From positions 62,001 through 126,000 of the forward strand of contig SVTH01000003.1 in assembly GCA_015063885.1 (NCBI GenBank): DNA of 64,000 nucleotides, read 5' to 3'. Below are positions 3,535 to 61,640 of this stretch, piece by piece. The stretch comes from Oscillospiraceae bacterium. GTDB taxonomy: Bacteria > Bacillota > Clostridia > Oscillospirales > CAG-382. Below the pieces are notes generated by a model. That model made no database searches. It was not told the DNA's origin and saw nothing but the letters and a program-made list of their open reading frames with translations. Position 1 is the stretch's first letter, and each line of letters starts with the position of its first letter. Made by a program: the position numbers and the translations under genes.

Positions 3535-3702
3535 CTTAAGAACCTTTCTTTGAAAAGAAAGGTTCTTAAGAATCTCCAAAGAAACTTTTCATGCCGAAAA
3601 CTGTCGTTTTCGGAAAAATATATACTTCAAAATGCAGGGTTCTTAGGGGGATCATCCCCCTAAGCGGAGATTCTTAAGAGGCAGCGCCTCTTAAGCCCCC
3701 CC
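3535..3702. repeat. Composite palindromic element, full form (family P)
   Basis: Hairpin 1 has 16-bp arms (3535-3550/3555-3570) and loop TGAA. A linker with CCAAAGAAACTTTT follows, then hairpin 2, CCGAAAAC-TGTC-GTTTTCGG (3594-3613). After a 20-nt variable piece come two more hairpins: CTTAGGGGG/CCCCCTAAG around 3650, and CTTAAGAGGC/GCCTCTTAAG (about 3673-3695). The same module order recurs at 12527, 15926 and 61486. It fills the rseP-ispG gap and may end rseP transcripts. Confidence 0.85.
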
Positions 3703-3704
3703 CT

Positions 3705-4766
3705 TCAAAACAACGCAACGATGTCCTTAAAGAACACCAGCGCCATGATGACCAGTAGCGCCACCATGGTGCCGCCCACGATCCGTTCCTCCACCTTTTT
3801 GGAAAGGGGCTTTCTGCGGATGGCCTCGATGACGTAGATCAAAAACCGTCCGCCGTCCAACGCGGGGATGGGCAGGAGGTTCATAATGCCCAGGGAGACG
3901 GAGATCATCATGGTCATGCTCCCCAGATTCCGCAGGGTGTCGGCGAAGTTGTCGGCGGCGTCCATAGCCTCTCCGATCTGCTCGCCGATGGCGACGGGAC
4001 CGCCCACGGCCTCCAGACCGTAGCGCCCCGTGAAGGTATCGATGAGGGAATCCACCGTCATATAGATGGAGTTATATCCCTGCCAAAAGCTTTCGTACAG
4101 GATGGTGAGAGGCGTCTTGTCCTTGCGGTACACCTTGAAATCCAAGGCACCGTAGACGATGCCCTCCTCCTCGGTGTAGGCGAAGATCACGTTCTCCAAA
4201 AGCACCTCTTCCCCGTTACGCTCCACCAGGATATCCACCCCGAAGGCACCGTCCGCCATGACCTTATAGGAAAGATCCGGGAAGCAATGGATGGTCTTGC
4301 CGTCGATCTCCAGAATGGTATCGTTCACCTGCAAGCCGTATTTACCGCTTTCGTTGTGCTCCATCAGCTCCGCCACTTGGGTACTGCCGATGGCGTAGCT
4401 GGTGCTCACCAGAACCAGCATCACGGCGAAGGCCAGCAGGATGTTCATGAAGGGTCCTGCCAGGACGATGAGCATCCGCTTAAAAATGTTTACCTCGTTA
4501 ATCGGCTTTCTGCCGATGCAGGCCACCATGGATTCCACGTCGTCGTCCTCCCCGGGCTCCCCCGCCATACGGACGTAGCCGCCGATGGGAAGGGCACGGA
4601 TGGAGAAGGTATTGATCTTGCCCTGCCAGCTCTTGATCTTGGGACCCATGCCGATGGAAAACTCGATGATGGCCACTCCCGAGGCACGGGCAACCAGATA
4701 GTGCCCCAGCTCGTGGACGGTGACCAGCAGGCCGAAGATCAGAAGGGTAACGAGAATGGTGATCAT
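3705..4766 (-). CDS. rseP: RIP metalloprotease RseP/RasP (site-2 protease)
   Basis: Membrane-embedded zinc protease that cuts anti-sigma factors and leftover signal peptides within the bilayer. The 353-aa protein has HELGH at residues 18-22 in its first membrane helix (zinc ligands and catalytic Glu), a single PDZ-like region around residues 115-190 (LQVNDTILEIDGK), the third zinc ligand in PALDGGRFL near residue 305, and a hydrophobic C-terminal helix. A single PDZ and this length fit Gram-positive RasP. It follows dxr by 31 nt with SD AAAGGA, so co-transcription is likely. In Bacillus the same neighbours (cdsA, dxr, rasP) are found. Confidence 0.94.
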   Translation of the reverse strand: MITILVTLLIFGLLVTVHELGHYLVARASGVAIIEFSIGMGPKIKSWQGKINTFSIRALPIGGYVRMAGEPGEDDDVESMVACIGRKPINEVNIFKRMLIVLAGPFMNILLAFAVMLVLVSTSYAIGSTQVAELMEHNESGKYGLQVNDTILEIDGKTIHCFPDLSYKVMADGAFGVDILVERNGEEVLLENVIFAYTEEEGIVYGALDFKVYRKDKTPLTILYESFWQGYNSIYMTVDSLIDTFTGRYGLEAVGGPVAIGEQIGEAMDAADNFADTLRNLGSMTMMISVSLGIMNLLPIPALDGGRFLIYVIEAIRRKPLSKKVEERIVGGTMVALLVIMALVFFKDIVALF

Positions 4767-6841: not shown

Positions 6842-7030
6842 CTTAAGGGGTTTTCTTTGAAAAGAAAGCCCCTTAAGGATCCCAAAGAAACTTTTATTGC
6901 CGAAAACTGTCGTTTTCGGAAAGAAGACGCACCTGGGCGATGCAAAAGGAAACGAATTGATTCTCCGCATCACAGGCTCCCCCTGGAAGGCGGGAGCTGT
7001 CGGCGATCAGCCGACTGAGGGGGTTGACCC
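6842..7030. repeat. Composite palindrome P fused to a family-Q palindrome
   Basis: 6842-6877 is hairpin 1 (CTTAAGGGG/CCCCTTAAG arms), followed by the linker CCCAAAGAAACTTTTATTG and hairpin 2 at 6900-6919, identical to the 3594 copy. From about 6972 a family-Q piece begins (CAGGCTCCCCCTGGAAGG, then GTCGGC-gatca-GCCGAC, then TGAGGGGGTTGA); this family is common at 39.6-40.8 and 46 kb. The element occupies the uppS-cdsA gap. Confidence 0.8.
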
Positions 7031-9181: not shown

Positions 9182-10019
9182 CGTAGGGGTCGACGTCCTT
9201 CGGCGACCCGCATTGGGGAGGATAGGGTTGCGTTTTTTCCGCACAACGGCGGGGGGATGTTCCACGCAACGAGAACGTATAAGATCGTTTCGTCATGCAA
9301 CGCTTCCGGGTCGCCGTGGACGTCGACCCCTACGGTCACGCAAGGAACAACGTCATAATTCCTGCTTCGTTCCACGCAGGAAGGATGGTCGAAAACGGTA
9401 TTCTTACAGACCTTGTTGCGGAAGGGATGGTCCGATTTTTAGCCGTGCCTCGGTGCGGGTTCGTAGGGGTCGACGTCCTTCGGCGACCCGCATTGGGGAG
9501 GATAGGGTTGCGTTTTTTCCGCACAACGGCGGAGGGATGTTCCACGCAACGAGAACGTATAAGATCGTTTCGTCATGCAGCGCTTCCGGGTCGCCGTGGA
9601 CGTCGACCCCTACGGTCACGCAAGAAACAACGTCATAATTCCTGCTTCGTTCCACGCAGGAAGGATGATCGAAAACGGTATTCTTACAGACCTTGTTGCG
9701 GGAGGGATGGTCCGATTTTTTCCGTCTCTCGGTGCGGGTTCGTAGGGGTCGACGTCCTTCGGCGACCCGCATTGGGGAGGATAGGGATGCGTTTTTTCCG
9801 CACAACGGCGGGGGGATGTTCCACGCAACGAGAACGTATAAGATCGTTTCGTCATGCAACGCTTCCGGGTCGCCGTGGACGTCGACCCCTACGGTCACGC
9901 AAGGAACAACGTCATAATTCCTGCTTCGTTCCACGCAGGAAGGATGGTCGAAAACGGTATTCTTACAGACCTTGTTGCGGGAGGGATGGTCCGATTTTTA
10001 GCTGTACCTCGGCTTATGC
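9182..10019. repeat. Tandem array: three ~280-bp units with paired R palindromes
   Basis: Units begin at 9182, 9462 and 9741 (period 279-280) and are nearly identical. Each holds one palindrome GTAGGGG...GACCCG (GGGTCG/CGACCC arms, e.g. 9187-9192/9204-9209), then an inverted second copy about 125 bp later (for example near 9308), then ATTCCTGC...GCAGGAAGG. Open frames across it exist in several frames on both strands and repeat with the units, so they are not called as genes. The 9094-9181 gap before it holds only the pyrH promoter. Confidence 0.9.
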
Positions 10020-12509: not shown

Positions 12510-12526
12510 GTATATCTCCTTTTTTC

Positions 12527-13085
12527 CAAGAAACTTTCTTGAAAGAAAGTTTCTTGAACTTCAAAGAACTTTTATTGCCGAAAACTGTCGTTTTCGGGAG
12601 GGTGTATAAAAACGAAGAGGAAAATATCGTAGCGTCGGGTGAAAACCGTTTCCTTCGGTTCCGGGCGATTCGTGAAGCGCCCCTACTGTCACGAGGGAAA
12701 CATAAGCGAAAAATATCCTTGTGTCGGCAAAAGCCGTTGCCTTCGGTTCCGGGCTGCCGATACCGCCTGCGGCGGTGAGACGTCAGCCCCTACAAATACG
12801 CAAGATGCCTTGGATAAAATCAAACCATATTTTCACGCAGCGAGGTAGGTATAAACCGTTTTTCGTCCTTCCTATCTGCGGAAGAAAGGGCTACGTTTTT
12901 AACCTTTCCTCCGTTCGGGTTTGTAGGGGACGACGTCCACGGCGTCCCGCTTGCGTTGTGCTGCGAAACGACTTTACGCTGTACCCTATGCGGGAACTTT
13001 TTCATTTTCCCTCACAATACCGGGTTCTTAGGGAGCGGGCTCCCTAAGCGGAGATTCTTAAGAGGCAGAGCCTCTTAAGCGTCCC
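12527..13085. repeat. Left copy of the ~560-bp direct repeat flanking uvrA
   Basis: It starts with composite element P (hairpin 1 at 12527-12556, hairpin 2 at 12578-12597). It then holds an inner stretch with AAACCG/CCTTCGGTT motifs, a GGGCG.../...CGCCC palindrome, a CAGCCCCTACAAATACGC piece, and an R palindrome (GGGACG 12927-12932 / CGTCCC 12943-12948). It ends with the two terminal P hairpins from about 13022. The copy at 15926-16485 has the same order and mostly the same bases. No gene is seen in it. Confidence 0.9.
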
Positions 13086-15925: not shown

Positions 15926-16485
15926 CTTAAGGGGATTTCTTTGGAAAGAAATCCCCTTAAGAATCCCAAAGAAACTTTTATTGCCGAAAACTGTCGTTTT
16001 CGGGAGGGTGTATAAAAAGCAAAGGGGAAAATATTGTAGCGTCGGCAAAAACCGTTTCCTTAACGGGCGATTCGTGAATCGCCCCTACGGTTACGGGGGA
16101 AACACAAGCGAAAAATATTCTTGTGTCGGCAAAAGCCGTTTCCTTCGGTTCCGGGCTGCCGATACCGCCTACGGCGGCGAGACGTCAGCCCCTACAAATA
16201 CGCAAGATGCCTTGGATAAAATCAAACCATATTTTCACGCAAGGCGGTGGGCATAAATCGGATAATTGCCGTCCGATCTGCGGGAGAAAAGGTATGTTTT
16301 TAACCTTTCCTCGGTTCGGGTCCGTAGGGGACGACGTCCACGGCGTCCCGCTTGCGTTGTACCGTGAAACGACTTTGCGCTGTACCCTATGCGGGAAATA
16401 TCTTCATTTTTCCTCACAATACCGGGTTCTTAGGGAGCGGGCTCCCTAAGCGGAGATTCTTAAGAGGCAGAGCCTCTTAAGCGTA
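15926..16485. repeat. Right copy of the ~560-bp direct repeat flanking uvrA
   Basis: Hairpin 1 at 15926-15961 (arms CTTAAGGGGATTTC/GAAATCCCCTTAAG), hairpin 2 at 15983-16002, then the same inner segment as 12600-13020 and the same terminal hairpins (about 16425-16480). Hairpin 1 differs in sequence from the left copy, but both arms changed together. No coding potential is supported. Confidence 0.9.
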
Positions 16486-18600: not shown

Positions 18601-20600
18601 GTAACCGGCGGAACGGGAAAAAGCGGTAGTGCGAAGGGGGTACCATACCCTCAAAAAATGCTTGGCATTTTTTGACTCTTATTCGGGCTCACGCCGCTCA
18701 TAAGAGTTCGACTCGTGCGGGTTGTTTCCTTGTGCGCAGCCGCGACGGCTCTATCCCGCACTCGCTCAGAGTGACAATACAAGGCAAGGTTTGCGATATA
18801 CGTAGCGCTTATTGAGCTATATCAATTCGATTGTCATTCTGAGCGGAGCCGCGGGGAAGGGGGTAAGGATAGGAAAAGGGCGGCAATCCCGCGGCGGAGT
18901 CGAAGTTTTGCGGAGAAAGCAAGGCACGTTAGTGCCGTTCGGAGCAAAACCAAGGGGTGCGGAGCGCCCCGCAGGGATATGGTAGGGAATTAGATGTACT
19001 CTTTCTGTAACGCAAGAACTGTTTTAAGTAACTGACGGAACGGAAAAAAGCGGTATAGCAAAGGAGTAGCCATACCCTCAAAAAATGCTTGGCATTTTTT
19101 GACTCTTATTCGGGCTCACGCCGCTCATAAGAGTTCGACTCGTGCGGGGTGTTTCATTGTGCACAGCCGCGGCGGCTCTATCCCGCACTCGCTCAGAGTG
19201 ACCAAGTCGGCGAATGGGTGCGGGTTTAAAGGCAGCGTCAGTACGCCGACGTTAAAAACGGCTTCGCCGTTTTTTCAACCGTGGTGCCGTTTGTAGGGCA
19301 AGGTTTGCGATATACGTACGTTTTTGCTACCCTTACCCTCGGACTGTCATTCTGAGCGGAGCCGCGGAGAAGGGGGTAAGGATAGGAAAGAAAAGGCAAT
19401 CCCGCGGCGGAGTCGAAGTTTTGCGGAGAAAGCAAGGCACGTTAGTGCCGTTCGGAGCAAAACCAAGGGGTGCGGAGCGCCCCGCAGGGATATGGTTGGG
19501 AGTTAGATGTACCCTTCTGTAACGCAAGAACTGTTTATAGTAACTGAAGGAACGAAAAAGACGGTAGTGCAAATATGTAGCCATACCCTCAAAAAATGCG
19601 GGCATTTTTTGACTTCCGCTTAGGCTCACGCCACGCGCGGAAGTTCGACGCGGCAGGGATTTTGCCGTGTGCTCCTATCGAAAACACCGTGCTCCCTGCC
19701 TTGCTCAGGGTGACAATACAAGGGGTAGCGGTTGTGCTATGCGTGGCGGTTTCGCCGTTCTTGCCCCAGGATTGTCATTCTGAGCGGAGCCGCGGGGAAG
19801 GGTGTATGGATAGGAAAACGAAGGCTCTCCCGCGGCGGAGTCGAAGTTTTGCGGAGAAAGCAAGGCACGTTAGTGCCGTTCGGAGCAAAACCAAGGGGTG
19901 CTTTGCGCCCCGCAGGGATATGGTAGGGAATTAGATGTACCCTTCTGTAACGTAAGAACTGTTTTAAGTAACTGACGGAACGGAAAAGACGGTAGTGCGA
20001 AGGGGGTACCATACCCTCAAAAAATGCTTGGCATTTTTTGACTCTTATTCGGGCTCACGCCGCTCATAAGAGTTCGACGCGGCAGGGATTTTGCCGTGTA
20101 CTCCTATTGAAAACACCGTGCTCCCTGCCTTGCTCAGGGTGACAAACAGACGCTGCGTTGTCGATATACGTAACGTTTTCACCCTTCTCGCCCCAGGACT
20201 GTCATTCTGAGCGGAGCCGCGGAGAAGGGGGAGAGGATAGGAAAACGAAGGCTCTCCCGCGGCGGAGTCGAAGTTTTGCGGAGAAAGCAAGGCACGTTAG
20301 TGCCGTTCGGAGCAAAACCAAGGGGTGCTTTGCGCCCCGCAGGGATATGGTTGGGAGTTAGATGTATCCTTCTGTAACGCAAGAACTGTTTATAGTAACT
20401 GACGGAACGGAAAGAGCGGTATAGCAAATGTGTTACCATACCCTCAAAAAATGCTTGGCATTTTTTGACTCTTATTCGGGCTCACGCCGCTCATAAGAGT
20501 TCGACTCGTGCGGGTTGTTGCATTGTGCACAGCCGTGACGGCTCTATCCCGCACTCGCTCAGAGTGACAAACAGGGGTAGCGTTGTCGATATGCGTAGCG
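18601..20600. repeat. Five tandem copies of a multi-stem structured repeat (family S)
   Basis: Units begin at 18601, 19028, 19540, 19968 and 20395 (spacing 427, 512, 428 and 427). Each opens GTAACTGACGGAACG. Stem 1 is TCAAAAAATGC/GCATTTTTTGA. Stem 2 is 8 bp around a 17-nt loop containing GGCTCACGCC. Stem 3 is 7-8 bp and may enclose AGCCG/CGGCT. The second half of the unit carries GTCATTCTGAGCGGAGCCGC and GGCAC-gtta-GTGCC. Stems 2 and 3 exist in two alternative but self-complementary versions (see findings). Short open frames that recur in each unit are not called. This fills the 2.3-kb uvrB to 20789 gap. Confidence 0.92.
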
Positions 20601-20752
20601 TTTTCCCGTGCAACGCCTTGCTCGTTCTTGCGCCCTATACAAAACGCCGCTGAAGCGTCGTTTTGCGACCGCAGTGCCGTTTGCAGGGCGCCGTTGTGCT
20701 TTTTGCGTTCAACTACACTGCTTTCCGTAACCTTCCCCTCCCCTGCTGGTGC

Positions 20753-24939: not shown

Positions 24940-25415
24940 ACGCAGGGAGGGTGGTGTGAATTTCGTCGTGTCGGTGCACGCAGGGTGGGTCGCCGTGGAC
25001 GTCGACCCCTACGAATACGCAATAACGGTTGCGAAGGGGCATGCCGAATTCCACGCAGGGAGGGGGGTGTGGATCCGTTGCGCCGGTGCACGCGGGACGG
25101 GTCGCCGTGGACGTCGACCCCTACGAATACGCAATAACGGTTGTGTAAGGACATGCCGAATTCCACGCAGGGAGGGTGGTGGAATTTCGTTGCGCCGGTG
25201 CACGCGGGGCGGGTCGCCGTGGACGTCGACCCCTACGAATACGCAATAACGGTTGCGAAAGGGGCAGGCAGAATTCCACGCAGGGAAGGGCGGTGTGAAT
25301 CCGTTGCGCCGGCGCACGCAGGGCGGGTCGCCGTGGACGTCGACCCCTACGCATACGCAATAACGGTTGCGAAGGGGCATGCCGAATTCCACGCAGGGAG
25401 GGTGGTGGAAATAAC
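24940..25415. repeat. Tandem array: four 112-114 bp units with R palindromes
   Basis: The core CGCCGTGGACGTCGACCCCT recurs at 24991, 25103, 25215 and 25329. Each unit also carries ACGAATACGCAATAACGG and GAATTCCACGCAGGGAGGG. Frames on both strands are open through several units and give repeated peptides; I regard none as a gene. Confidence 0.9.
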
Positions 25416-25643: not shown

Positions 25644-25672
25644 AAAAAAACACCGAAGACGGCAGTCTTCGG
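25644..25672 (-). terminator. Intrinsic terminator of mrp
   Basis: On the minus strand CCGAAGAC-tgcc-GTCTTCGG followed by TG and seven T. A second large hairpin, GGGGGC.CTTTTT/AAAAAG.GCCCCC, lies nearer the gene at about 25696-25726. Confidence 0.93.
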
Positions 25673-25737
25673 CATTGCTTTTTGTGGGGGTTCAAGGGGG
25701 CGCTTTTTTGAAAAAGTGCCCCCTTGCGTTTCCTTGC

Positions 25738-26553: not shown

Positions 26554-26589
26554 GATGGTTTTCCTTTCTGTTTGACGGGGAGAAAGAAA

Positions 26590-26722
26590 ACTTTTTGAAA
26601 AAAGTTTCTCTCTCGTGCTCTCTCTTCAAAAACTTTTCCCTCCAAAACGCATATTTATGCGTTTTGGCAATAGGGTTTCTTGGGAGGTGCGGAACCCTTC
26701 TTTTTCCCGAAAAGAAGGGTTC
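26590..26722. repeat. Composite palindrome P, minus orientation, variant stems
   Basis: Read on the minus strand: hairpin 1 GAACCCTTCTT.../...AAGAAGGGTTC (26722-26692), linker CCAAGAAACCCTATTG, hairpin 2 CCAAAACGCAT/ATGCGTTTTGG (26667-26642). Further left another imperfect hairpin of AAAGTTT type. Hairpin 2 has a completely different stem from the other copies but is still perfectly paired. Confidence 0.8.
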
Positions 26723-26734
26723 TGCGTCGTTCTC

Positions 26735-35373: not shown

Positions 35374-35449
35374 CTTAAACCCCTTTTTCGAGAAAAAGGG
35401 GTTTAAGAATCCCCAAAAAGCTTTTCCTGCCGAAAACTTCCGTTTTCGG
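35374..35449. repeat. Composite palindrome P (two-hairpin form)
   Basis: Hairpin 1 CTTAAACCCCTTTTTC/GAAAAAGGGGTTTAAG (35374-35407), linker CCCCAAAAAGCTTTTCCTG, hairpin 2 CCGAAAAC-TTCC-GTTTTCGG (35430-35449). It lies just behind the SGNH gene. Confidence 0.85.
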
Positions 35450-36272: not shown

Positions 36273-36301
36273 TTGCTTTTTTTCATAATCTGTGCTATAC
36301 T
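36273..36301 (+). promoter_or_regulatory. Promoter of DUF4855 lipoprotein 1
   Basis: TTGCTT (36273-36278), 17 bp, TATACT (36296-36301), 29 nt before ATG 36331. Confidence 0.75.
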
Positions 36302-36330
36302 GTCAAAAACGAGACGAGGAGACTACAGCT

Positions 36331-39300
36331 ATGAAAAGAATCATCGCCTTTCTTTTATTGACTTGTATGCTGCTTTTGGCGGCCTGCGACGGGAATCCTC
36401 CCGCCGGGACGAGCGGCGGGGAGAGCGCCCCCGAAACCGGTTCCGAAAGCGTGGAGGAAAGCTCCGAGGTAACGGAAGAAGGCTTCCGCAAGACCTTGAT
36501 CAGCGTGGGCAAGAGCTACACCTACGACTCTACCACCCCTTCGCCGTACTATCCCGACCTGTTCGATCAGCAGTTGACCGACGGGCAGAAGGCCTTTGAC
36601 ACCGGGGTACACTACACCGACGTCCGCATGGTGGGCTACACCGACGACCTGGTAGTGATCGTGGACCTGGGAGAGGACGGCAAGCGCATTTCCGGTGCCT
36701 CCGCAAGAGGCATCGACATGAACAAGGACGGGGTGAAGCTCCCCGACCGTCTCCGTATTTCCGGCTCCGACGACGGCAGAAAATGGACCTCCCTGGGGAA
36801 GGCCGAATTTGAAGCCACGGGAGACATGACGGTCAGCACCGCCACCGTGGAGCTTGAGGAGCTGTGTGATTTCCGCTACATCCGTTTCCGCATCACCCGC
36901 ACCGGCGGCTTTATCTTCCTGGATGAATTGGAGGTCTACGCCGACGTGGACGCCCCCGAGGAAAAGGGGGACGGCGCAGAGCTGATCTACACCTCCGAGG
37001 ACGTTGACCGCGGCGCATGGGCGGCCCTTTCCACCGGCAAGACGGCAAAGCCCACCTACAGCGAAAACCTGGCACTTTACAAGACCTACGCCTTTGAAGG
37101 CTGTTCCTTTGATGAACGGGCTCCCAAGAACGACAAGCTTCTCACCGACGACGCCCGCACGGGAAGACTGTTCGGCCAGCCCGTTTGGGTGGGACTGAAG
37201 GGCGGCAGCGTGAAGGTGGATCTGGGGAAGGCTCACGAAAACCTTTACGCCGTGCAGGTCTTCACCTTAGGGGCAGGCCCGGGAGTGGAGCTACCCGATT
37301 ACCTGGATCTTTACGGCTCTCCCGACGGTAAGAAGTTCACTCTGCTGGGCAGAGCGTATTCCCCCGGGAGGGGCAACCATCACACCTACACCGTCCTGCT
37401 GCCGGAATACGTGAAGGCGAGATATATCCGCGTCACCTTCCCCGGTGAGCAGACCTGCTGGGTGGAGGAGATCCGCGTGCTGGGAGGCGTTTCCGAGGCA
37501 CCCGAGACGGAGCTGTATCCCCCGCTGAACTTCCCCATCGTGGAAGAGAACGTCTATTGGGACGCCTCCGAGGAGGATTACGCAGACCGTCAGAATCTGC
37601 TGCTGGGGTTGATTCAGCAGGTGGCCTGCTCCGGGTACGAGCCCTCTCATCAGCTTCAGCCCGACGCTCAGAAGCGTACGGACCCCGATTCCCCCATCCT
37701 CACCGACGGCAAGCTTGGGGACGGCCAGGGAATGTACTGCTACAGCGGAGAATGGTTCTTCGTCACCGGCGGTAACGCCTACGAGTTCTTCTACGATCTG
37801 GGCAAGCTGTCCTCCATCGATACCCTGGAGATCAGCCTGCTGGAGCAGACGGCCTGGGGCATTTCCCGTCCCAAAACCATCTCCATGTTCCTTTCCGAAA
37901 ACGGGGAGGACTGGTACGAGGTCTATCAGTACCTGCGGGATGAAAACGAGCCCAAAAACAAGAACGCCACCCGTCTTACCTTCACCTGTGAGCTTGAGAC
38001 CCCTTACGCCGCAAGATTCGTGCGGTTCCGCATAGAGGGCGGTGCCACCTTCATCGACGAGCTGCGGGCCTTCGGCACCAAGCAGATCCGTGAGATCACC
38101 AAGCCCTTGGAAGACAGCGGCATCCGCCCCGTGGTGTACTACACCAACCCTGCAAGAGAGCAGTACGCCAACAGCGAGAACACCTCCGTGAAGGCAGACG
38201 ACATCTACCTTGCCTTCGGCAACGTGGAATACGGCGAGGGCATGAAGGGCCTGGTGGCCTACGTGGACGAGGAGGGCAAGGCCAAGGACTTCTATTTCGA
38301 CGGCTTCCTTTACGGCATGTACGGCCTTCCCGTCAAGACCGACAATCAGACCCATCTTTACAACGTGAAATCCGACTGGGAGGAGCAGTTTGACGCCATC
38401 TTTGACGGTGTGGGCGGATTGGATCTGCTGAACGAGACCGTTGGCAAGGTAAAAGAGGAGCTGAACCGCCCGGATCACAAGGTATACGTTTACATCACCA
38501 TGTGGTGTGTCTGCGAGAACGTCACAGATTTCGGGGACGTGGACGGGGACGGTATTTCCGAGGACCTGTCCAAGACGGAGGACCGCAAGAAGGTGGTGGA
38601 TTGGTACACAGGGATGTGCATGGAGGAGTTCGCCTCCAGAGGCTACGAGCACCTGGAATTCGACGGCTTCTACTGGCAGGGAGAATCGGTGAACTGGGAC
38701 AACCCCGCCACCCCCGTTTGCGAGGACAACAGCCACATCATCACCGAGGTTTCCGAATATATCCACGCCAAGAACACCAACCTGCTGTGGATCCCCTACT
38801 ACACCGCCATCGGGTACTACCAGACCTACGAGCTGGGCTTCGACCTCATCTGCATGCAGCCCAACTATATGTTCGACCTGGAGCAGCCCCTCTACCGCTT
38901 TGACGTCACCGCTTCCCGCACCAAGCGTCAGCATTTGTGCGTGGAGATCGAGCACTCTTACCAGGCACTTTCCGACCCGTTGTTCGTGCGGAATTATATG
39001 CTGTATCTGTATTACGGCGCTATCACGGGGTATATGAATGAGGCTACCCATATCTACTACGCCGACCTTACCAACTTCGTACAGCTGGCCTACAGCGACG
39101 AGCCCCTGGCACGGCTGCAATACGACGCCACCTATCAGTTCATGCAGGGCACGCTGAAGCCCAACCCCGACGTAGTGGAGACCCTCTCCGTGAAGGGAAG
39201 CAAGGACACCATGACAGAGGGTGAGCTGAACACGGAAGGCGGGCTGTATCTCTACACCCTCACCTCCTCCGCCGCCCACGGCTACGTCACCCTGGCAAGC

Positions 39301-39420
39301 GACGGAAGCTTCCGTTACTTCCCCGACAAGGGATTTACCGGCAAGGATTCCTTCACCTATACTTACAACAACTACATGGGCGAATCGGAGACCTGCACCG
39401 TGGAGATCACGGTAGAATAA
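36331..39420 (+). CDS. Large lipoprotein with discoidin-like and DUF4855 domains (paralog 1)
   Basis: 1029 aa from ATG 36331 (SD GAGGAG). Lipoprotein signal MKRIIAFLLLTCMLLLAAC, Cys19, then an acidic/Ser linker. Three F5/8-type-C-like beta domains: about 55-215 (FRYIRFRITRTGGFIFLDELEVYA), 240-390 (VKARYIRVTFPGEQTCWVEEIRVLG) and 400-600 (AARFVRFRIEGGATFIDELRAFG). DUF4855 about 610-930 (VVYYTNPAREQYANSE...DFYFDGFLYG...EHLEFDGFYWQGE...LLWIPYYTA). C-terminal Ig/cadherin-like module FRYFPDKGFTGKDSFTYTYNN. DUF4855 looks like a glycosidase-type barrel, so carbohydrate binding and cleavage at the cell surface is a fair guess. A paralog lies at 58374-61475. Confidence 0.85.
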   Translation: MKRIIAFLLLTCMLLLAACDGNPPAGTSGGESAPETGSESVEESSEVTEEGFRKTLISVGKSYTYDSTTPSPYYPDLFDQQLTDGQKAFDTGVHYTDVRMVGYTDDLVVIVDLGEDGKRISGASARGIDMNKDGVKLPDRLRISGSDDGRKWTSLGKAEFEATGDMTVSTATVELEELCDFRYIRFRITRTGGFIFLDELEVYADVDAPEEKGDGAELIYTSEDVDRGAWAALSTGKTAKPTYSENLALYKTYAFEGCSFDERAPKNDKLLTDDARTGRLFGQPVWVGLKGGSVKVDLGKAHENLYAVQVFTLGAGPGVELPDYLDLYGSPDGKKFTLLGRAYSPGRGNHHTYTVLLPEYVKARYIRVTFPGEQTCWVEEIRVLGGVSEAPETELYPPLNFPIVEENVYWDASEEDYADRQNLLLGLIQQVACSGYEPSHQLQPDAQKRTDPDSPILTDGKLGDGQGMYCYSGEWFFVTGGNAYEFFYDLGKLSSIDTLEISLLEQTAWGISRPKTISMFLSENGEDWYEVYQYLRDENEPKNKNATRLTFTCELETPYAARFVRFRIEGGATFIDELRAFGTKQIREITKPLEDSGIRPVVYYTNPAREQYANSENTSVKADDIYLAFGNVEYGEGMKGLVAYVDEEGKAKDFYFDGFLYGMYGLPVKTDNQTHLYNVKSDWEEQFDAIFDGVGGLDLLNETVGKVKEELNRPDHKVYVYITMWCVCENVTDFGDVDGDGISEDLSKTEDRKKVVDWYTGMCMEEFASRGYEHLEFDGFYWQGESVNWDNPATPVCEDNSHIITEVSEYIHAKNTNLLWIPYYTAIGYYQTYELGFDLICMQPNYMFDLEQPLYRFDVTASRTKRQHLCVEIEHSYQALSDPLFVRNYMLYLYYGAITGYMNEATHIYYADLTNFVQLAYSDEPLARLQYDATYQFMQGTLKPNPDVVETLSVKGSKDTMTEGELNTEGGLYLYTLTSSAAHGYVTLASDGSFRYFPDKGFTGKDSFTYTYNNYMGESETCTVEITVE

Positions 39421-39463: not shown

Positions 39464-39589
39464 TTGATTGCAAGCGAAGTGTGATATGCTTTTGAAAGTT
39501 AGTTTTGCCCGCGGGACAATCCCCTCCTTCCCCTATGCTAAGGGGAGCCTTTGCGGCACTACTAAAGTGAACTCCTTTTTCTTGGCGAA

Positions 39590-40790
39590 AAATTCAAGCC
39601 ATCCGCACCGCAGGCTGCCCCTGGAAGGGGGAGCTGGCGGCGTCAGCCGACTGAGGGGGTTGAACCGTGCGGAAAGATTCTTTCAGTAGCGGGAAAATAG
39701 ACGTAGGTATAAGCCGTCGGTTGATTCGTACCGTCGGCGTCGCCTTTGGGGGGAGTACTACTTGTTGCCGGCTTTTGAAAGTTGTTTTGCCCGTGGGACA
39801 ATCCCCTCAGTCACACCGCAAGCGGCGCGACAGCTCCCCTTGCTAAGGGGAGCCTTTCACCTCGGCTTAATCTCTAACTTTACGCACCGCAGGCTGCCCC
39901 TGGAAGGGGGAGCTGGCGGCGTCAGCCGACTGAGGGGGTTGAGCCATGCGGAAAGATTCTTTCGGTAGCGGGAAAATAGACGTAGGTATAAGCCGTCGGT
40001 TGATTCGTGCCGTTGGCGTTGCCTCCGGGGGGGAGTACTACTTGTTGCCGGCTTATGAAAGTTAGTTTTGCCCGCGGGACAATCCCCTCAGTCACACCGC
40101 AAGTGGCGCGACAGCTCCCCTTACTAAGGGGAGCCTTTCACCTCGGCTAAATCTCTAACTTTACACACCGCAGGCTGCCCCTGGAAGGGGGAGCTGGCGG
40201 CGTCAGCCGACTGAGGGGGTTGAACCGTGCGGAAAGATTCTTTCAGTAGCGGGAAAATAGACGTAGGTATAAGCCGTCGGTTGATTCGTACCGTCGGCGT
40301 CGCCTTTGGGGGGAGTACTACTTGTTGCCGGCTTTTGAAAGTTGTTTTGCCCGTGGGACAATCCCCTCAGTCACACCGCAAGCGGCGCGACAGCTCCCCT
40401 TGCTAAGGGGAGCCTTTCACCTCGGCTTAATCTCTAACTTTACGCACCGCAGGCTGCCCCTGGAAGGGGGAGCTGGCGGCGTCAGCCGACTGAGGGGGTT
40501 GAGCCATGCGGAAAGATTCTTTCGGTAGCGGGAAAATAGACGTAGGTATAAGCCGTCGGTTGATTCGTGCCGTTGGCGTTGCCTCCGGGGGGGAGTACTA
40601 CTTGTTGCCGGCTTATGAAAGTTAGTTTTGCCCGCGGGACAATCCCCTCAGTCACACCGCAAGTGGCGCGACAGCTCCCCTTACTAAGGGGAGCCTTTCA
40701 CCTCGGCTAAATCTCTAACTTTACACACCGCAGGCTGCCCCCGGAAGGGGGGAATAGTCGGCTTTGCCGACCGAGGGGTTGAATCGCTCC
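39590..40790. repeat. Family-Q tandem block with an exact 560-bp duplication
   Basis: CAGGCTGCCCCTGGAAGGGG recurs at 39611, 39890, 40171 and 40450, and as a CCCCGGAAGGGG variant at 40731 (spacing 279-281). Units alternate in two types A-B-A-B, and the second A-B pair repeats the first exactly by eye, so a 560-bp dimer has been duplicated recently. Each unit contains GGCGTCAGCCGACTGAGGGGG and CTCCCCTTGCTAAGGGGAGC hairpins. The recurring 68-codon frames (39762, 40322) are artefacts of the repeat. Confidence 0.92.
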
Positions 40791-40794
40791 GGAA

Positions 40795-44414: not shown

Positions 44415-44528
44415 GGGGGGCTTTTTCAAAAAAGTCCCCGCTTGCCCCCTCAAAAGCTTTTCATTCAAAATAGGTTTTCTTTGGGATTTTTAAGGGCCTT
44501 TCTTTTTCCGAAAAGAAAGGCCCTTAAA
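44415..44528. repeat. Terminator-like hairpin plus composite palindrome P (minus orientation)
   Basis: 44415-44439 holds a hairpin with GGGG/CCCC and T5/A6 arms just behind trkH. 44489-44528 is hairpin 1 of family P with arms TTTAAGGGCCTTTCTTTT/AAAAGAAAGGCCCTTAAA. Between them is the linker seen elsewhere (minus strand: ATCCCAAAGAAAACC), but hairpin 2 is degenerate (AAAAGCTTTT). The element sits between two convergent genes and may stop both. Confidence 0.75.
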
Positions 44529-46084: not shown

Positions 46085-46890
46085 AAGCTACAATCTCGCC
46101 ACGGCAACGCAGGCTGCCCCCGGAATGGGGGAGCCTTTGCGACCTTGCTAAGGGGGGTACATCGGTAAAATTTCAGGTTATCCGCACCGCAGGCTGCCCC
46201 TGGAAGGGGGAGCTGGCGGCGTCAGCCGACTGAGGGGGTTGAGCCATGCGGAAAGATTCTTTCGGTAGCGGGAAAATAGACGTGGGTATAAGCCGTTGGT
46301 TGATTCGTGCCGGCGTCGTCGCCTCCGGGGGGGAGTACTACTTGTTACCGGCTTTTGAAAGTTAGTTTTGCCCGTGGGACAATCCCCTCAGTCACACCGC
46401 AAGCGGCGCGACAGCTCCCCTTGCTAAGGGGAGCCTTTTGACACAGCGATCATTTAGTTTGACAATCTTTTTATTCCGCTTGCTACCTTACTGATGGGAG
46501 CGTTTTTTCTCGGTGAAAAATGCAAGTTGCCCGCAACGCAGGCTGCCCCTGGAAGGGGGAGCTGGCACGGCGTGTCCGGCCGCCGTGACTGAGGGGGTTG
46601 AGCCGTGCGGAAAGATTCTTTCAGTAGCGGGAAAATAGACGTGGGTATAAGCCGTCGGTTGATTCGTACCGTCGGCGTCGTCTTTGGGGAAAGTGTTGCT
46701 TGTTACCGGCTTTTGAAAAGTTAGTTTTGCCCGCGGGACAATCCCCTCAGTCACACCGCAAGCGGCGCGACAGCTCCCCTTACTAAGGGGAGCCTTTAGC
46801 TTCGGCTAAATCTCTAACTTTACGCACCACAGGCTGCCCCTGGAAGGGGGGAATAGTCGGCTTTGCCAACCAAGGGGTTGACCCACGCCG
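46085..46890. repeat. Cluster of family-Q repeats, divergent copies
   Basis: CAGGCTGCCCC...GGAAGGGG starts at about 46107, 46191, 46541 and 46831. The copy near 46541 has an altered hairpin, CACGGCG...CGCCGTG, in place of GGCGTCAGCC-type stems. The units also carry GGGAAAATAGACGTGGGTATAAGCCG and CTCCCCTT.CTAAGGGGAG hairpins. No gene is supported in 46012-46966. Confidence 0.85.
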
Positions 46891-46966
46891 AAAGATTCCT
46901 TTTGGTTATACAAAAGAAGAGCCGAGTCTTTTGACCCGGCTCCCAAACGTCTTCGTTATGCGGTTT

Positions 46967-49869: not shown

Positions 49870-50200
49870 AAAATATTGACGTGTCGGCGAAAACCGTTAC
49901 GTTCGGTTCCGGGACGCCATACCGCCTTCGGCGGCAAAACAGTGACCCCTACGGATCCGAAGGGAGCACAGCGGAAAAATCAAACCTCGTCTTTCGCAGG
50001 ATGGGTCGCCGTGGACGTCGACCCCTACAGGACCGAATCAACAAAAGATGAAAAACATACCTTCTCTCCCGCATAGAGTACGGTTTAAAATCCGGTTTAT
50101 ACCCACCTCATTGCGTGAAAATACTGTACGGATTCGGATAACGATCCCTGCGTATTTGTAGGGGTCGACGTCCACGGCGACCCGCCTGCGTTGAAGGGCA
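49870..50200. repeat. Intergenic repeat cluster with R palindromes in both orientations
   Basis: Contains GTGTCGGCGAAAACCGTT and CCGCCTTCGGCGG, related to the inner part of the uvrA-flanking repeats. One inverted R palindrome lies near 50005-50030 and one direct copy at 50162-50183 (GGGTCG/CGACCC). No gene is supported between ung and the alpha-galactosidase. Confidence 0.8.
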
Positions 50201-56038: not shown

Positions 56039-56740
56039 GTAACTGACGGAACGAAAAAAGCGGTAGTGCGAAGGGGAGACCATACCCTCAAAAAATGCTC
56101 GGCATTTTTTGCCTCTTATTCGGGCTCACGCCGCTCATAAGAGTTCGACTCGTGCGGGTTGTTTCATTGTGCACAGCCGCGACGGCTCTGTCCCGCACTC
56201 GCTCAGAGTGACCAAGTCGGCGAATGGGTGCGGGTTTAAAGGCAGCGTCAGTACGCCGACGTTAAAAACGGCTTCGCCGTTTTTTCAACCGCGGTGCCGT
56301 TTGTAGGGCAAGGTTTGCGATATACGTAGCGCTTATTGAGCTATATCAATTCGACTGTCATTCTGAGCGGAGCCGCGGAACAGGGTGTAAGGATAGGAAA
56401 GAAAAGGCTGTCCCGCGGCGGAGTCGAAGTTTTGCGGAGAAAGCAAGGCACGTTAGTGCCGTTCGGAGCAAAACCGAAGCCTGCGATAGCGGGCTGAGGG
56501 ATATGATTGGGAGTTAGATCGACCTTTTTGTAACGCAAGAACTGTTTTTAGTAACTGACGGAACGGAAAAGACGGTAGTGCAAATGTGTAACCATACCCT
56601 CAAAAAATGCTCGGCATTTTTTGACTCTTATTCGGGCTCACGCCACTCATAAGAGTTCGACTCGTGCGGGTTGTTTCATTGTGCACAGCCGCGACGGCTC
56701 TATCCCGCACTCGCTCAGAGTGACCACCGGGGGGGCTGTT
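56039..56740. repeat. Two copies of structured repeat S
   Basis: Units begin at 56039 and 56551 (spacing 512, as for the long unit at 19028). Stem 1 has loop TCG instead of TTG; stem 2 (CTCTTAT/ATAAGAG) and stem 3 (GTGCGGG/CCCGCAC) are the type-1 versions. The middle piece with GTACGCCGACGTTAAAAACGGC is shared with the 19028 unit. No gene is supported between 55861 and 56888. Confidence 0.9.
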
Positions 56741-56812
56741 GCGCCCTTTACAAAAGCAAGTAGCGGTCACACTTGTATGCGTGCTCTACATTTCTTCCTC
56801 TCCCGAAAGCGA

Positions 56813-56880
56813 CAGCTTTCGGCAATAAGTTTCTTTTGGATTCTTAAGGGGTTTTCTTTTTCGAAAGAAAACCCCTTAAG
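56813..56880. repeat. Composite palindrome P, minus orientation, compensated hairpin 2
   Basis: Minus strand: hairpin 1 CTTAAGGGGTTTTCTTTC.../...GAAAACCCCTTAAG (56880-56843), linker ATCCAAAAGAAACTTATTG, hairpin 2 CCGAAAGC-TGTC-GCTTTCGG (56832-56813). Against the common copy, an A-T pair of hairpin 2 has become G-C on both sides. Confidence 0.88.
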
Positions 56881-58373: not shown

Positions 58374-61300
58374 ATGAAAAGATGGATCGCCTGGCTTCTT
58401 TTGGCAAGCATGCTGCTTTTGGCGTCTTGCGAAAGCACCCCCGGTACCACCTCCGGTGAAAGCGCTTCCTCCACGGAAACGGAGTCCTCTGAGGACACCT
58501 CGGAGCCGCCTATGGAAACCGTGAAGCACACTGTGGTCAGCGTAGGCAAGACCTACACCACCTCCACCAAACCCGCCTCCGGGTATGAAGACCTGTTCGG
58601 TCAGCAGTTGACCGACGGTCAGAAGGCTTACGACACCGCCGTTCACTACACCGACGTGCGTCTGGTAGGCTTTAACGACGACGTACGTATCGACATGGAC
58701 CTGGGAGAGGACGGCAAAGCCCTGACCTCCGCCACCGTCCGCGTCATCGACATCAACACCGACGGCGTCAAGCTGGCAAAGCGCGTCCGTTTCTACGGCA
58801 GTAACTCCGCAACCAGCGGCTGGAAGACCCTGGGCAAGGCAAGCTTTGTCCCCACCGGTGACAGAACCATGTCCACCGCCACCGTTGAGTTCGAGGAGCC
58901 CGTGGATTACCGTTACATCCGTGCCTCCATCACCCGTGAGGACGGAGCACACTTCTTCTTCATCGACGAGTTTGAGGTCTGCGCCAACGTGGACGCTCCC
59001 GAGAAGGTGAACACCGCCGATCCCGTCTACGACGCAGAGGACATCGACCGCGGCGCCTGGACGGCACTTTCCACCGGCATCACCGCCGCTCCCGTGGACA
59101 GCACCAACGTGGCAAACGGCGTTGCCTACACCTTCAAGGACTGCACCTTTGACCGGCGTGCGTCCGAAAGCAAGACCCTCCTCACCGACGGCGACCGTAC
59201 CACCCGCCGCTTCGGCGACAAGGTATGGGTGGGCATCAAGGCGGAAGGCACCCCTTCCATCTCCATGACCCTGCCCCAGACCTACGACAATCTGTACGGC
59301 TTCCGTATTCACATGCTGGGCGCAGGCCTTGACGTGACCTATCCCGGCGCCATCGACGTTTACGCCTCCGCAGACAACAAGAATTTCGTTTTGGCAGGCA
59401 GGATCTACGCCCCCGGCGACGTGGCAAACCAGGCCTACACCCTTCTGATGCCCGAGTATCTGAAGGCGAAATACCTGCGCTTTGACTTTGTGGGCGGCAA
59501 CGAAGGACAGTACCTGTGGATCGAGGAGATCGAGGTATTGGCAGGCCACGGCACCGTTCAGGCAGGAGAGCATTTCTCGGAGCTGAACTTCCCCATCGTC
59601 ACCGAGGACGCATACTGGGATGCCTCCGCCTCCGACTACACCACCTATCAGAACCTGCTGTTGGGGCTGGGCCAGCAGATCGCGGCCTCCGACTACGTGC
59701 CCGCATACAACCCCAAGCTTTCCAACCAGCTCACCTCCGCCGATACCAAGCTCCTTACCGACGGCAAGCACGGCAACGTGGCTTCCTGCTACGGTCCCGA
59801 CTGGTTCTACTTCTACGGCGGCAACGCCATCGACGTCTTCTACGATATGGGCAAGCTGTCCTCCATCGACAAGGTGGTCATCAGCCTGCTGGAGTACGGC
59901 TCCTGGGGCATTCAGCGTCCCAAGTTCCACTCCGTCTTCCTTTCCGACGACGGTGAGACCTGGTACAAGGTAGCGGACTATCAGCGTCCCAAAAACCAGA
60001 AGTTTGAAGACGCCAACAACGTGCAGTACGAGTATCAGCTGGACAAGACCTACGCCGCCCGGTTCGTCCGCTTCCGTATCGAGTGCACCGGCCACACCTT
60101 CATCGACGAGTTTGAGGCCTACGGCACCAAGGAAGTGAAGGAAGGCACCACCCGTCTGGCGGATACCGACCTCCGTGTTTCCGTATTCTACACCAACCCC
60201 TCCCGCGCCCAATTCGCCACCGACGACAACACCGGCGTCCACGCCGAGGAGATCGCTCTTTTGTGGGGCGGCAACGAGGGTTCCGACAATATGCTCATGG
60301 GCTTTGCCGCTTATCTGGATGAAAACGGAAACATCAAGGATACCATGATGGACGGCTTTATGTACTTCCCGGATTATCACCTGCCCACCGGCGCATTGGG
60401 TTACCAGGCCAGCGGTAAGGCGGACTGGGACTACATGTTCGACACCACCTTCGACGGCAAGAACGGTCTTGAGAAGCTGGAAGAGGTGGTGGGCGAGATC
60501 AAGTCCACGTTGAACATCCCCGATTACAAGGTTTACGTTTACTTCCCCCTGCTGCGTCTTTGCGACGTGGCGAAGAGCACTCTTGACCCCAAGAACAACG
60601 TGCTGAACTTCGGTGACGTGGACGGCGACGGCGTCATTGAGGACACCACCAAGTCCGAGGACCGTATCAAGATCTTTGAATGGTACGTGGAAAAGGTGGC
60701 CACCGAGTTTGCCGCAAGAGGCTACGAGAACCTGGTTCTGGACGGCTTCTGCTGGGTCAACGAGGACGTTGGCTACGAGAGGGACGACTCCCACATCATC
60801 ACCGAGGCGGGCGACGTTTGCAAGAAGGCGGGTCAGAACATGCTGTGGATCCCCTACTACACCGCAAACCGTTACTTCCTGGGTCACGAGATGGGCGTTG
60901 GCGTGACCAACATGCAGCCCAACTATATGTTCGACCTGGAGCAGTCCACCTCCCGTCTGGAGGTAGCCGCCACCCGTCTGAAGTGGATGAAGATGTGCGT
61001 GGAGATCGAGCACAACTTCGAGGCCTTTGCAGATCCGCTGTTCCTGCGCAACTACATGATGTATCTGTACTACGGCGCACTTTCCGGGTACATGGATTCC
61101 ATCCACATCTACTACGACAACATCGAGAACATCTCCCTCATGGCTTACAGCAAGGATCCCATGATCCGCTTCCAGTACGAGGCCACCTACCACTTCATCA
61201 AGAACGATCTGGACATCTACCCCGATGCCCGTGACGTGTTGAAGTTCACCACCAAGCAGAACACCGTTCTGGAGGGCACTCTGAACGTGGAGGACAGCTT

Positions 61301-61475
61301 CTCCCTGTACACCCTTACCAGCGGCGCCAAGAACGGTACCGTCTCCCTCTCCACCGACGGCACCCTGCGCTACTACCCCGCACCCGGCTTCACCGGCACG
61401 GACTCCTTCACCTACACCTATAACAACTACCTGGGTGAGTCCGAGACCTGCACCGTGGAGATTACGGTAGAATAA
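58374..61475 (+). CDS. Large lipoprotein with discoidin-like and DUF4855 domains (paralog 2)
   Basis: 1033 aa with SD AAAGGAAA. Signal MKRWIAWLLLASMLLLASC, Cys19. Same layout as the 36331 gene: three F5/8-like domains (VDYRYIRASITREDGAHFFFIDEFEV; KAKYLRFDFVGGNEGQYLWIEEIEVL; AARFVRFRIECTGHTFIDEFEA), DUF4855 about residues 610-930 (FYTNPSRAQFATDDN...MMDGFMYFPDYHLP...ENLVLDGFCWVNED...MLWIPYYTANRYF), and a C-terminal module ending SFTYTYNNYLGESETCTVEI that is nearly identical to paralog 1. The ends are more alike than the middle, so the two may recognise different ligands. Confidence 0.85.
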   Translation: MKRWIAWLLLASMLLLASCESTPGTTSGESASSTETESSEDTSEPPMETVKHTVVSVGKTYTTSTKPASGYEDLFGQQLTDGQKAYDTAVHYTDVRLVGFNDDVRIDMDLGEDGKALTSATVRVIDINTDGVKLAKRVRFYGSNSATSGWKTLGKASFVPTGDRTMSTATVEFEEPVDYRYIRASITREDGAHFFFIDEFEVCANVDAPEKVNTADPVYDAEDIDRGAWTALSTGITAAPVDSTNVANGVAYTFKDCTFDRRASESKTLLTDGDRTTRRFGDKVWVGIKAEGTPSISMTLPQTYDNLYGFRIHMLGAGLDVTYPGAIDVYASADNKNFVLAGRIYAPGDVANQAYTLLMPEYLKAKYLRFDFVGGNEGQYLWIEEIEVLAGHGTVQAGEHFSELNFPIVTEDAYWDASASDYTTYQNLLLGLGQQIAASDYVPAYNPKLSNQLTSADTKLLTDGKHGNVASCYGPDWFYFYGGNAIDVFYDMGKLSSIDKVVISLLEYGSWGIQRPKFHSVFLSDDGETWYKVADYQRPKNQKFEDANNVQYEYQLDKTYAARFVRFRIECTGHTFIDEFEAYGTKEVKEGTTRLADTDLRVSVFYTNPSRAQFATDDNTGVHAEEIALLWGGNEGSDNMLMGFAAYLDENGNIKDTMMDGFMYFPDYHLPTGALGYQASGKADWDYMFDTTFDGKNGLEKLEEVVGEIKSTLNIPDYKVYVYFPLLRLCDVAKSTLDPKNNVLNFGDVDGDGVIEDTTKSEDRIKIFEWYVEKVATEFAARGYENLVLDGFCWVNEDVGYERDDSHIITEAGDVCKKAGQNMLWIPYYTANRYFLGHEMGVGVTNMQPNYMFDLEQSTSRLEVAATRLKWMKMCVEIEHNFEAFADPLFLRNYMMYLYYGALSGYMDSIHIYYDNIENISLMAYSKDPMIRFQYEATYHFIKNDLDIYPDARDVLKFTTKQNTVLEGTLNVEDSFSLYTLTSGAKNGTVSLSTDGTLRYYPAPGFTGTDSFTYTYNNYLGESETCTVEITVE

Positions 61476-61485
61476 ATATTGACGT

Positions 61486-61640
61486 CAAGGGGACTTTCTT
61501 TCGAAAAAGAAAGTCCCCTTAACAATCCCCAAAGAAACCGTATTGCCGAAAACTGCCGTTTTCGGGAGAGGATGATATAGCATGCGGGATTCTTAAGGGA
61601 CGCAGTTCCTTAAGCGGAGATCATAAGAGGCGGCGCCTCT
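61486..61640. repeat. Composite palindrome P, full form
   Basis: Hairpin 1 AAGGGGACTTTCTTT/AAGAAAGTCCCCTT (61488-61521, could also terminate the upstream gene), linker CCCCAAAGAAACCGTATTG, hairpin 2 CCGAAAAC-TGCC-GTTTTCGG (61547-61566), then the terminal hairpins TTAAGGGA..TTCCTTAA and ATAAGAGGC/GCCTCTTAT followed by a T-rich run. Best-preserved copy besides 3535-3702. Confidence 0.88.

Follow-up and report, generated by a model that had tools for sequence, protein, structure and literature searches.

The intergenic composite at position 3535 of the window (the whole stretch of 64,000 nucleotides that was analysed) raises the question of what is held constant among recurring copies of two hairpins and a joining linker at gene borders, and of what such a structure could do there. 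The source genome, 2.14 Mb in 22 contigs and about 85% complete, belongs to an uncultured gut bacterium and carries dozens of short intergenic repeats; some stretches of sequence were masked. The window covers bases 62001–126000 of contig 22. The initial annotation listed nine places in the window, and hairpin 1 indeed has complementary arms at all nine, over 13–18 bp. Its claim that the stems compensate on both sides also holds, by the complementary hairpin 1 arms at the nine sites and by several covarying forms of hairpin 2. Hairpin 2 itself is present at eight of the nine sites and missing at 44489, where a second hairpin of the hairpin 1 kind follows. The composite at 3535 runs on to about 3695 through two further hairpins (3 and 4). 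The features of the window are as follows.

3535–3570, plus strand: hairpin 1 (CTTAAGAACCTTTCTT-TGAA-AAGAAAGGTTCTTAAG), a perfect 16-bp stem
3571–3591, plus strand: linker AATCTCCAAAGAAACTTTTCA, the parallel complement of the hairpin 1 left arm and putative third strand
3594–3613, plus strand: hairpin 2 CCGAAAACTGTCGTTTTCGG
3642–3664, minus strand: hairpin 3 CTTAGGGGGATCATCCCCCTAAG, in the same composite as the 3535 copy; the block recurs at other loci
3665–3695, minus strand: hairpin 4 (AAGAGGC..GCCTCTT) with the third-strand-like flank AATCTCCG, 10 nt from the stop at 3705
6842–6919, plus strand: copy with hairpin 1 (6842–6877), linker (6878–6897) and hairpin 2 (6900–6919)
12525–12597, plus strand: copy with hairpin 1 (12525–12558, AAACTTTCTT), linker CTTCAAAGAAC and hairpin 2 (12578–12597)
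15926–16003, plus strand: copy with hairpin 1 (15926–15961), linker (15962–15981) and hairpin 2 (15984–16003)
25653–25726, minus strand: tenth copy, absent from the initial list, with hairpin 1 (25693–25726), linker (25675–25692, AACCCCCACAAAAAGCAA) and the hairpin 2 variant CCGAAGAC/GTCTTCGG
26580–26725, no single strand: dyad copy with one hairpin 1 on the plus strand (about 26580–26614) and one on the minus strand (26689–26725), each with its own linker, and a common central hairpin CCAAAACGCATATTTATGCGTTTTGG (26642–26667)
35374–35449, plus strand: copy with hairpin 1 (35374–35407, CCCCTTTTTCG), linker CCCCAAAAAGC and hairpin 2 (35430–35449)
44465–44528, minus strand: copy with hairpin 1 (44489–44528) and linker AATCCCAAAGAAAACC, without canonical hairpin 2, adjoining a second hairpin of the hairpin 1 kind
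56803–56880, minus strand: copy with hairpin 1 (56843–56880, GGGGTTTTCTTT), linker CCAAAAGAAAC and the hairpin 2 variant CCGAAAGC/GCTTTCGG
61484–61565, plus strand: copy with hairpin 1 (61484–61523, 9 nt after the stop at 61475), linker (61524–61543) and hairpin 2 (61546–61565)

The window contains other repeats as well. Two large paralogous ORFs (36292–39420 and 58374–61475) encode more than 1000 aa and are 72–76% identical in parts of their DNA; the element at 61484 lies about 9 nt after the second. A second repeat family, GGGTCGCCGTGGACGTCGACCCCTAC and its relatives (9300–9892, 12910–12958, 16311–16359, 24979–25350 and 50003–50193), is present in either orientation and also as short tandem arrays, spaced by 112 and 280 bp. 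A tandem array at 39574–40794 consists of units of about 280 bp with CGCACCGCAGGCTGCCCCTGGAAGGGGGAGCTGGC and has a partial copy 6 kb off at 46153–46893, and repeat units of about 427/513 bp are common to 18616–20684 and 56053–56840, 36 kb apart.

The composite is genuine and recurs. Hairpin 2, as TGCCGAAAACTGNCGTTTTCGG or a covarying form, occurs at about 60 places genome-wide with at most three mismatches, some of the listed matches being the opposite strand of the same place, and the reversed hairpin 2 pattern, used as a control, has no match in the 2.14-Mb genome. Its arms change together between copies (CCGAAAAC/GTTTTCGG, CCAAAAAC/GTTTTTGG, CCGAAAGC/GCTTTCGG and CCGAAGAC/GTCTTCGG). Four congeners carry about 30–50 copies each; hairpin 2 was not found in 19 other congeners or in 16 genera of the order, and the nearest named records with the same hairpin 2 are Clostridia MAGs from the ruminant gut. 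Hairpin 1 is followed on its 3' side by AATCTCCAAAG..., and hairpin 2 mostly by GGAG or GAAAA. Dyad copies, in which two hairpin 1 units have a common hairpin 2, also exist. At four loci (L023:1501, L031:708, L047:1462 and L058:1499) a small hairpin CTCGCC-NN-GGCGAG is located between hairpin 1 and the linker, with the match between linker and hairpin 1 intact.

The linker had been described as staying near CCCAAAGAAACTTTTATTG, which proved incorrect: it varies, and it does so jointly with hairpin 1. In copies anchored by hairpin 2, in the source genome and its relatives, the A/G block of the linker tracks the T/C block of the left arm of hairpin 1 letter by letter and in the same 5'–3' direction. 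The left-arm/linker pairs are TTTCTT/AAAGAA, TTTCTTT/AAAGAAA, TTTTTCG/AAAAAGC, TTTCTTTT/AAAGAAAA, TTTTCTTT/AAAAGAAA, TTTTTTTCTTTTT/AAAAAAAGAAAA and, at locus L010, TTTTTCTTT/AAAAAGAAA, where the reversed linker block is AAAGAAAAA. Since a hairpin is a palindrome, linker and right arm are mirror repeats of each other. The constant part of the element is therefore the rule that joins the linker to the stem, not the letters of the linker. By the initial annotation, a linker rare in the genome would count against the element; a genome-wide search for the fixed linker does find only six places, literally few copies, because the linker coevolves with hairpin 1, and the element is nevertheless common, as the hairpin 2 count indicates.

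The polarity of this rule is evident from 110 distinct cassettes, in which the lengths of linker and arm blocks correlate in the parallel arrangement (r = 0.73 and 0.84) and far less in the antiparallel one (0.26 and 0.20). Blocks are asymmetric in 64 cassettes. In 35 of these the linker block is the exact parallel complement and in none the exact reverse complement; 47 lie nearer to the parallel complement, one lies nearer to the reverse complement, and 16 tie. Exact matches number 71, compared with a mean of 26.5 and a maximum of 41 for permuted linkers, permutation figures that overstate the independent evidence because the cassettes are related by descent. In a set of 139 hairpins of at least 12 bp from the source genome, chosen without regard to hairpin 2 or linker fit and including the 3-kb loci around hairpin 2 matches, the parallel complement reaches z = 16, with 17 strong matches where 1.3 are expected (maximum 3). 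The weaker reverse-complement signal in the same set (z = 7.2) arises because the symmetric AAAGAAA can pair with TTTCTTT. Linkers that would be a direct copy or a reversal of the left arm are both at chance level among these 139 hairpins.

Hairpins without hairpin 2 follow the rule over longer purine tracts, as at L067:13781 (ACGAGAGGGAACCTTTTT with GCTCTCCCTCGAAAAA) and L065:2986 (TGAGGGAGGCACCTTT with AACTCCCTCCTCCAAAACTT), and the flank of hairpin 4 changes with its stem (AGAGGC/TCTCCG, GAGGGC/CTCCCG and AGGGGC/TCCCCG). Loop letters match the parallel complement in part (TGAA with ACTT), inconsistently, and were not counted as evidence. The rule is not a general property of hairpins: canonical terminators of the source genome score low, and in congener G019 1/20 reaches a score of at least 7. 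Congeners G019, G021, and G023 have no excess of hairpins following the mirror rule, and G011 has a few.

The linker's C/T block tracks the lower stem down to individual base pairs. With the stem written as AAG-n1-A-n3-C-TTT and the linker as TC-m2-m3-C-AAA, an A-T pair at n1 is accompanied by T in the putative third strand in 60/60 cases and a G-C pair by C in 8/11 (Fisher 1.6e-8; 4.9e-7 on distinct sequences only). At n3, a C-G pair goes with C in 55/56 cases and an A-T pair with T in 16/16 (Fisher 4e-15). One stem nucleotide beside the purine/pyrimidine junction is skipped by the linker. The offset of the A-block in CTTAA-based stems equals the lower-stem length minus 3 in 45/54 cassettes and minus 4 in 8 (r = 0.80; standard deviation 0.66 against a permuted minimum of 1.00). 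That the offset tracks lower-stem length indicates that the linker follows the stem in register. This register test is strong for CTTAA-based stems and weak over all cassettes because stem ends are ambiguous.

Orthologous loci were compared between congeners by their 500-bp flanks, so that a few pairs may be linked by repeated flanks instead of true orthology. Among pairs with different hairpin 1 sequences, the linker matches its own hairpin better than that of the other species in 31, less well in 3 and equally in 15; counted by locus, the figures are 19, 3, and 4. A single-step case is provided by L037 (GGGGTGC/CCCCG) and L121 (GGGGTAC/CCCTG), in which a stem G-C to A-T change is matched by C to T in the linker. 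The element can also be inverted at a shared intergenic place, as in L143 at the locus of L020:695 and L170 at the locus of L061:1520.

A scan of other genera revealed the same rule in genus g19 of the same family, where genome G041 contains an unrelated hairpin, CTTACTTTTTCTTT..AAAAGAAAAAGTAAG followed by CAAAAAGAAAA. Among 63 family members, its pattern is confined to the g19 genomes, all four of which carry it. The right arms AAAAGAAAAA, AAAAGAGAAA, and AAAAGAAGAA pair with the linkers AAAAAGAAAA, AAAGAGAAAA, and AAGAAGAAAA, respectively, and the variants change at mirror positions (AAAAGAGAAA..AAAGAGAAAA 52 times and AAAAGAAGAA..AAGAAGAAAA 15 times among the matches listed). Corresponding direct copies were not found in a pattern search allowing only two mismatches, in which not every alternative is visible; over the stretches from g19, the parallel complement is the better fit 32 times and the reverse complement 5 times. 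Genus g19 is an independent replication of the mirror rule. Some g19 hairpins of this triplex type are tandemly repeated about every 144 bp (G041:C18:141398–141852 and C26:21739–22054).

A parallel complement cannot form Watson–Crick pairs in the required register; such polarity is characteristic of a third strand lying in the major groove. One strand would fold into hairpin 1, and the linker would then fold back into its major groove as the third strand, base by base and in register. Within the left arm, a purine tract mostly precedes a pyrimidine tract, and the third strand would therefore read the left-arm purines first, in the pyrimidine motif (T.A-T and C+.G-C), and the right-arm purines next, in the purine motif (A.A-T and G.G-C). 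Such a triplex would be of the alternate-strand kind, and the complementary strand would form its mirror version (over the upper block, of U.A-U type). Hairpin 2 could serve as a spacer able to join two such units head to head.

Canonical triads number 12 per cassette in the median (of about 12 aligned), compared with a permuted mean of 9.4, and the three tracts on one strand follow an order typical of an intrastrand triplex (Y-R-RH, R-Y-H or a reverse of these). An alternate-strand arrangement can be read, for example, at L067:13781 (GAGAGGGAACCTTTTT with CTCTCCCTCGAAAAA) and L065:2986, the junction C's being exceptions. By the four classes of PMC4666352, the plus strand is a combination of class III (lower block) with class II (upper block), and the minus strand one of classes IV and I. 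The fit is imperfect in two respects. A junction C over C-G (AACC with CTCC) is non-canonical in the plus-strand reading, though on the minus strand this position becomes G over G-C and is less problematic; and runs of C+.G-C require protonation.

Gene context was determined for the copies in the source genome with a codon-model gene caller. None lies inside a gene; 15 are between convergent genes, 10 and 17 between tandem genes in the two orientations, and 1 between divergent genes, the convergent share being 15/43 compared with 7/69 background intergenic regions. Where hairpin 1 faces a gene end, it starts a median of 14–16 nt after the stop codon, while on the hairpin 2 side canonical terminators or hairpins 3 and 4 often intervene. 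Canonical intrinsic terminators adjoin several copies, indicating that the element is not needed for termination there, and the element itself does not present the G+C-rich hairpin directly followed by a U tract that marks an intrinsic terminator. The mixed orientation favours a role at the DNA level over a one-sided RNA signal. At gene 3' ends, single-stranded DNA or negative supercoiling behind converging polymerases may let the hairpin and third strand form, and the folded structure would hinder polymerase run-on. We infer that a triplex forms, that it forms as DNA, and that it acts as a boundary. An extragenic repeat family with an intrastrand triple helix at its core, likely a DNA boundary at gene 3' ends, is the reading to which we give a probability of roughly 0.6.

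The linker match itself could have simpler sources. The elements might be ordinary bidirectional terminators whose linker competes for one arm by Watson–Crick pairing, as in an attenuator; the position at gene ends and the ability of symmetric AAAGAAA to pair with TTTCTTT, which accounts for the z of 7.2, agree with this. Such pairing of linker to arm is contradicted by the asymmetric blocks (35 to 0 for the parallel complement), a result that genus g19 repeats, and hairpin 1 has no U tract while terminators of the usual form coexist alongside, making this explanation very improbable. Cassettes are clearly common to several loci and species, so a few ancestral hairpin–linker pairs might also have been copied around, the match being an accident of the founders. 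This is hardly compatible with at least nine asymmetric block types that each obey one rule, two stem positions that covary with base pairs, and the same rule in an unrelated hairpin of a second genus; moreover, we know of no copying process that yields a mirror sequence. We regard hitchhiking as very improbable.

Two further explanations accept a fold and differ on its role. As a mobile or selfish element of REP, BIME, or MITE type, the folded single strand would be a substrate of a transposase or recombinase, and its sites would be tolerated insertions. Copy orientation varies, some orthologous loci are inverted (L143 and L170) or have another hairpin 1 cassette between well-conserved flanks, and dyads with a common hairpin 2 and the g19 arrays fit this as well. 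The Y1/REP-associated transposase (PF01797) that the initial annotation proposed to look for is, however, absent from the source genome (about 85% complete) and from three of the four congeners with the element (not found in G000, G003, G004, and G010), a non-systematic look identified no target-site duplication or autonomous copy, and selfish origin alone leaves the tracking of stem by linker unexplained unless movement needs the fold. It seems an unlikely account of the whole, with a mobile origin of the boundary structure being possible. The fold might instead act in RNA: in a transcript entering from the side of hairpin 2, the linker, UUUCUUU, might form a U.A-U/C+.G-C major-groove triplex on hairpin 1 and shield the mRNA 3' end, by analogy with MALAT1/ENE, the 3'-end triple helix of eukaryotic and viral RNAs. 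The upper block of minus-strand RNA here would likewise be U.A-U with a C+.G-C triplet, and the strictest covariation falls in this block. A stable hairpin 1 lies about 15 nt past stop codons in convergent and ++ arrangements, and pyrimidine-motif intrastrand triplexes form in RNA, in which purine-motif ones cannot (PMC4666352). Unlike in ENE/MALAT1, orientation to transcription is mixed, balanced in the tandem class by the codon-model calls (10 and 17) and by a crude longest-ORF count (21 and 22). Moreover, a hairpin 1 placed after a stop codon belongs to the plus-strand transcript, whose upper block would be of the purine motif and hence not form in RNA. Rfam holds no matching family, with no match in the window and two chance matches elsewhere in a permissive search. 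An RNA role is thus rather improbable, and the 3'-end boundary structure at the DNA level is preferred.

The view of the initial annotation that a BIME-like element is used repeatedly at gene borders stands as far as repetition, extragenic location, and convergent/3'-end bias are concerned; a REP/RAYT origin is not supported. REP/BIME and the present element are both extragenic palindromes with this bias, arranged in composite inverted units with a linker. Unlike the RAYT-associated REP/BIME, the element is accompanied by Y1 in only one (G008) of five carriers, and its linker is not constant; to our knowledge, a third-strand rule is not a feature of REP. H-DNA mirror repeats resemble it in having two purine tracts that mirror each other. 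H-DNA, however, arises from a duplex that donates one strand; here palindrome and mirror repeat coincide, which lets one strand alone provide every strand of the triplex.

Among known elements, the BoxC/PIT/TM_ECO repeat comes closest. Repeats with intrastrand triplexes have been on record in bacteria since about 2000, as near-identical copies, with PIT elements reported by Hoyne and Maher. PIT/BoxC/TM_ECO (PMC4666352), like the element described here, are short extragenic repeats in tens of copies, with extreme copy-number differences between close relatives, and comprise a hairpin and a same-strand third tract able to fold back as a (reverse) Hoogsteen strand. In PIT/ITxF terms, the upper block of the present element falls in class II when read on one strand and in class IV when read on its complement. 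TM_ECO has a single G/C-rich consensus (CCCTCNCCC-N3-6-GGGNGAGGG-N3-GGGNGAGGG), without a match in the whole source genome, while here the sequences are diverse and three strands covary. Further differences are the joining of purine and pyrimidine motifs in an alternate-strand design, a spacer between duplex and third strand that can span the lower stem, and a conserved hairpin 2 as part of the unit. For TM_ECO, the isolated strand folds into a triplex of high stability (Holder et al., 2015, PMC4666352); DMS footprinting gave no support for a stable triplex in vivo, and neither promoter nor terminator activity had been seen in earlier work (PMC4666352). The kind of element, an intrastrand triplex repeat, is known, and the family, its alternate-strand design and above all the three-strand covariation appear new, as they were not found in the open-access literature.

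Because the known repeats are near-identical copies, the importance of their triplex could not be judged from sequence alone, and we know of no earlier covariation evidence for a natural DNA triplex being of importance to its host. We tentatively suggest, as a stronger and more doubtful claim, that selection in a family of gut Clostridia keeps alternate-strand intrastrand DNA triplexes by coordinated change of three strands, and that the cells use them as boundaries at gene ends. Three strands that change together in two genera, with a polarity unexplained by Watson–Crick pairing, make the role of natural DNA triplexes testable by linker swaps. If the triple-helix reading is true, the element would be unusually direct evolutionary evidence that selection keeps natural DNA triple helices.
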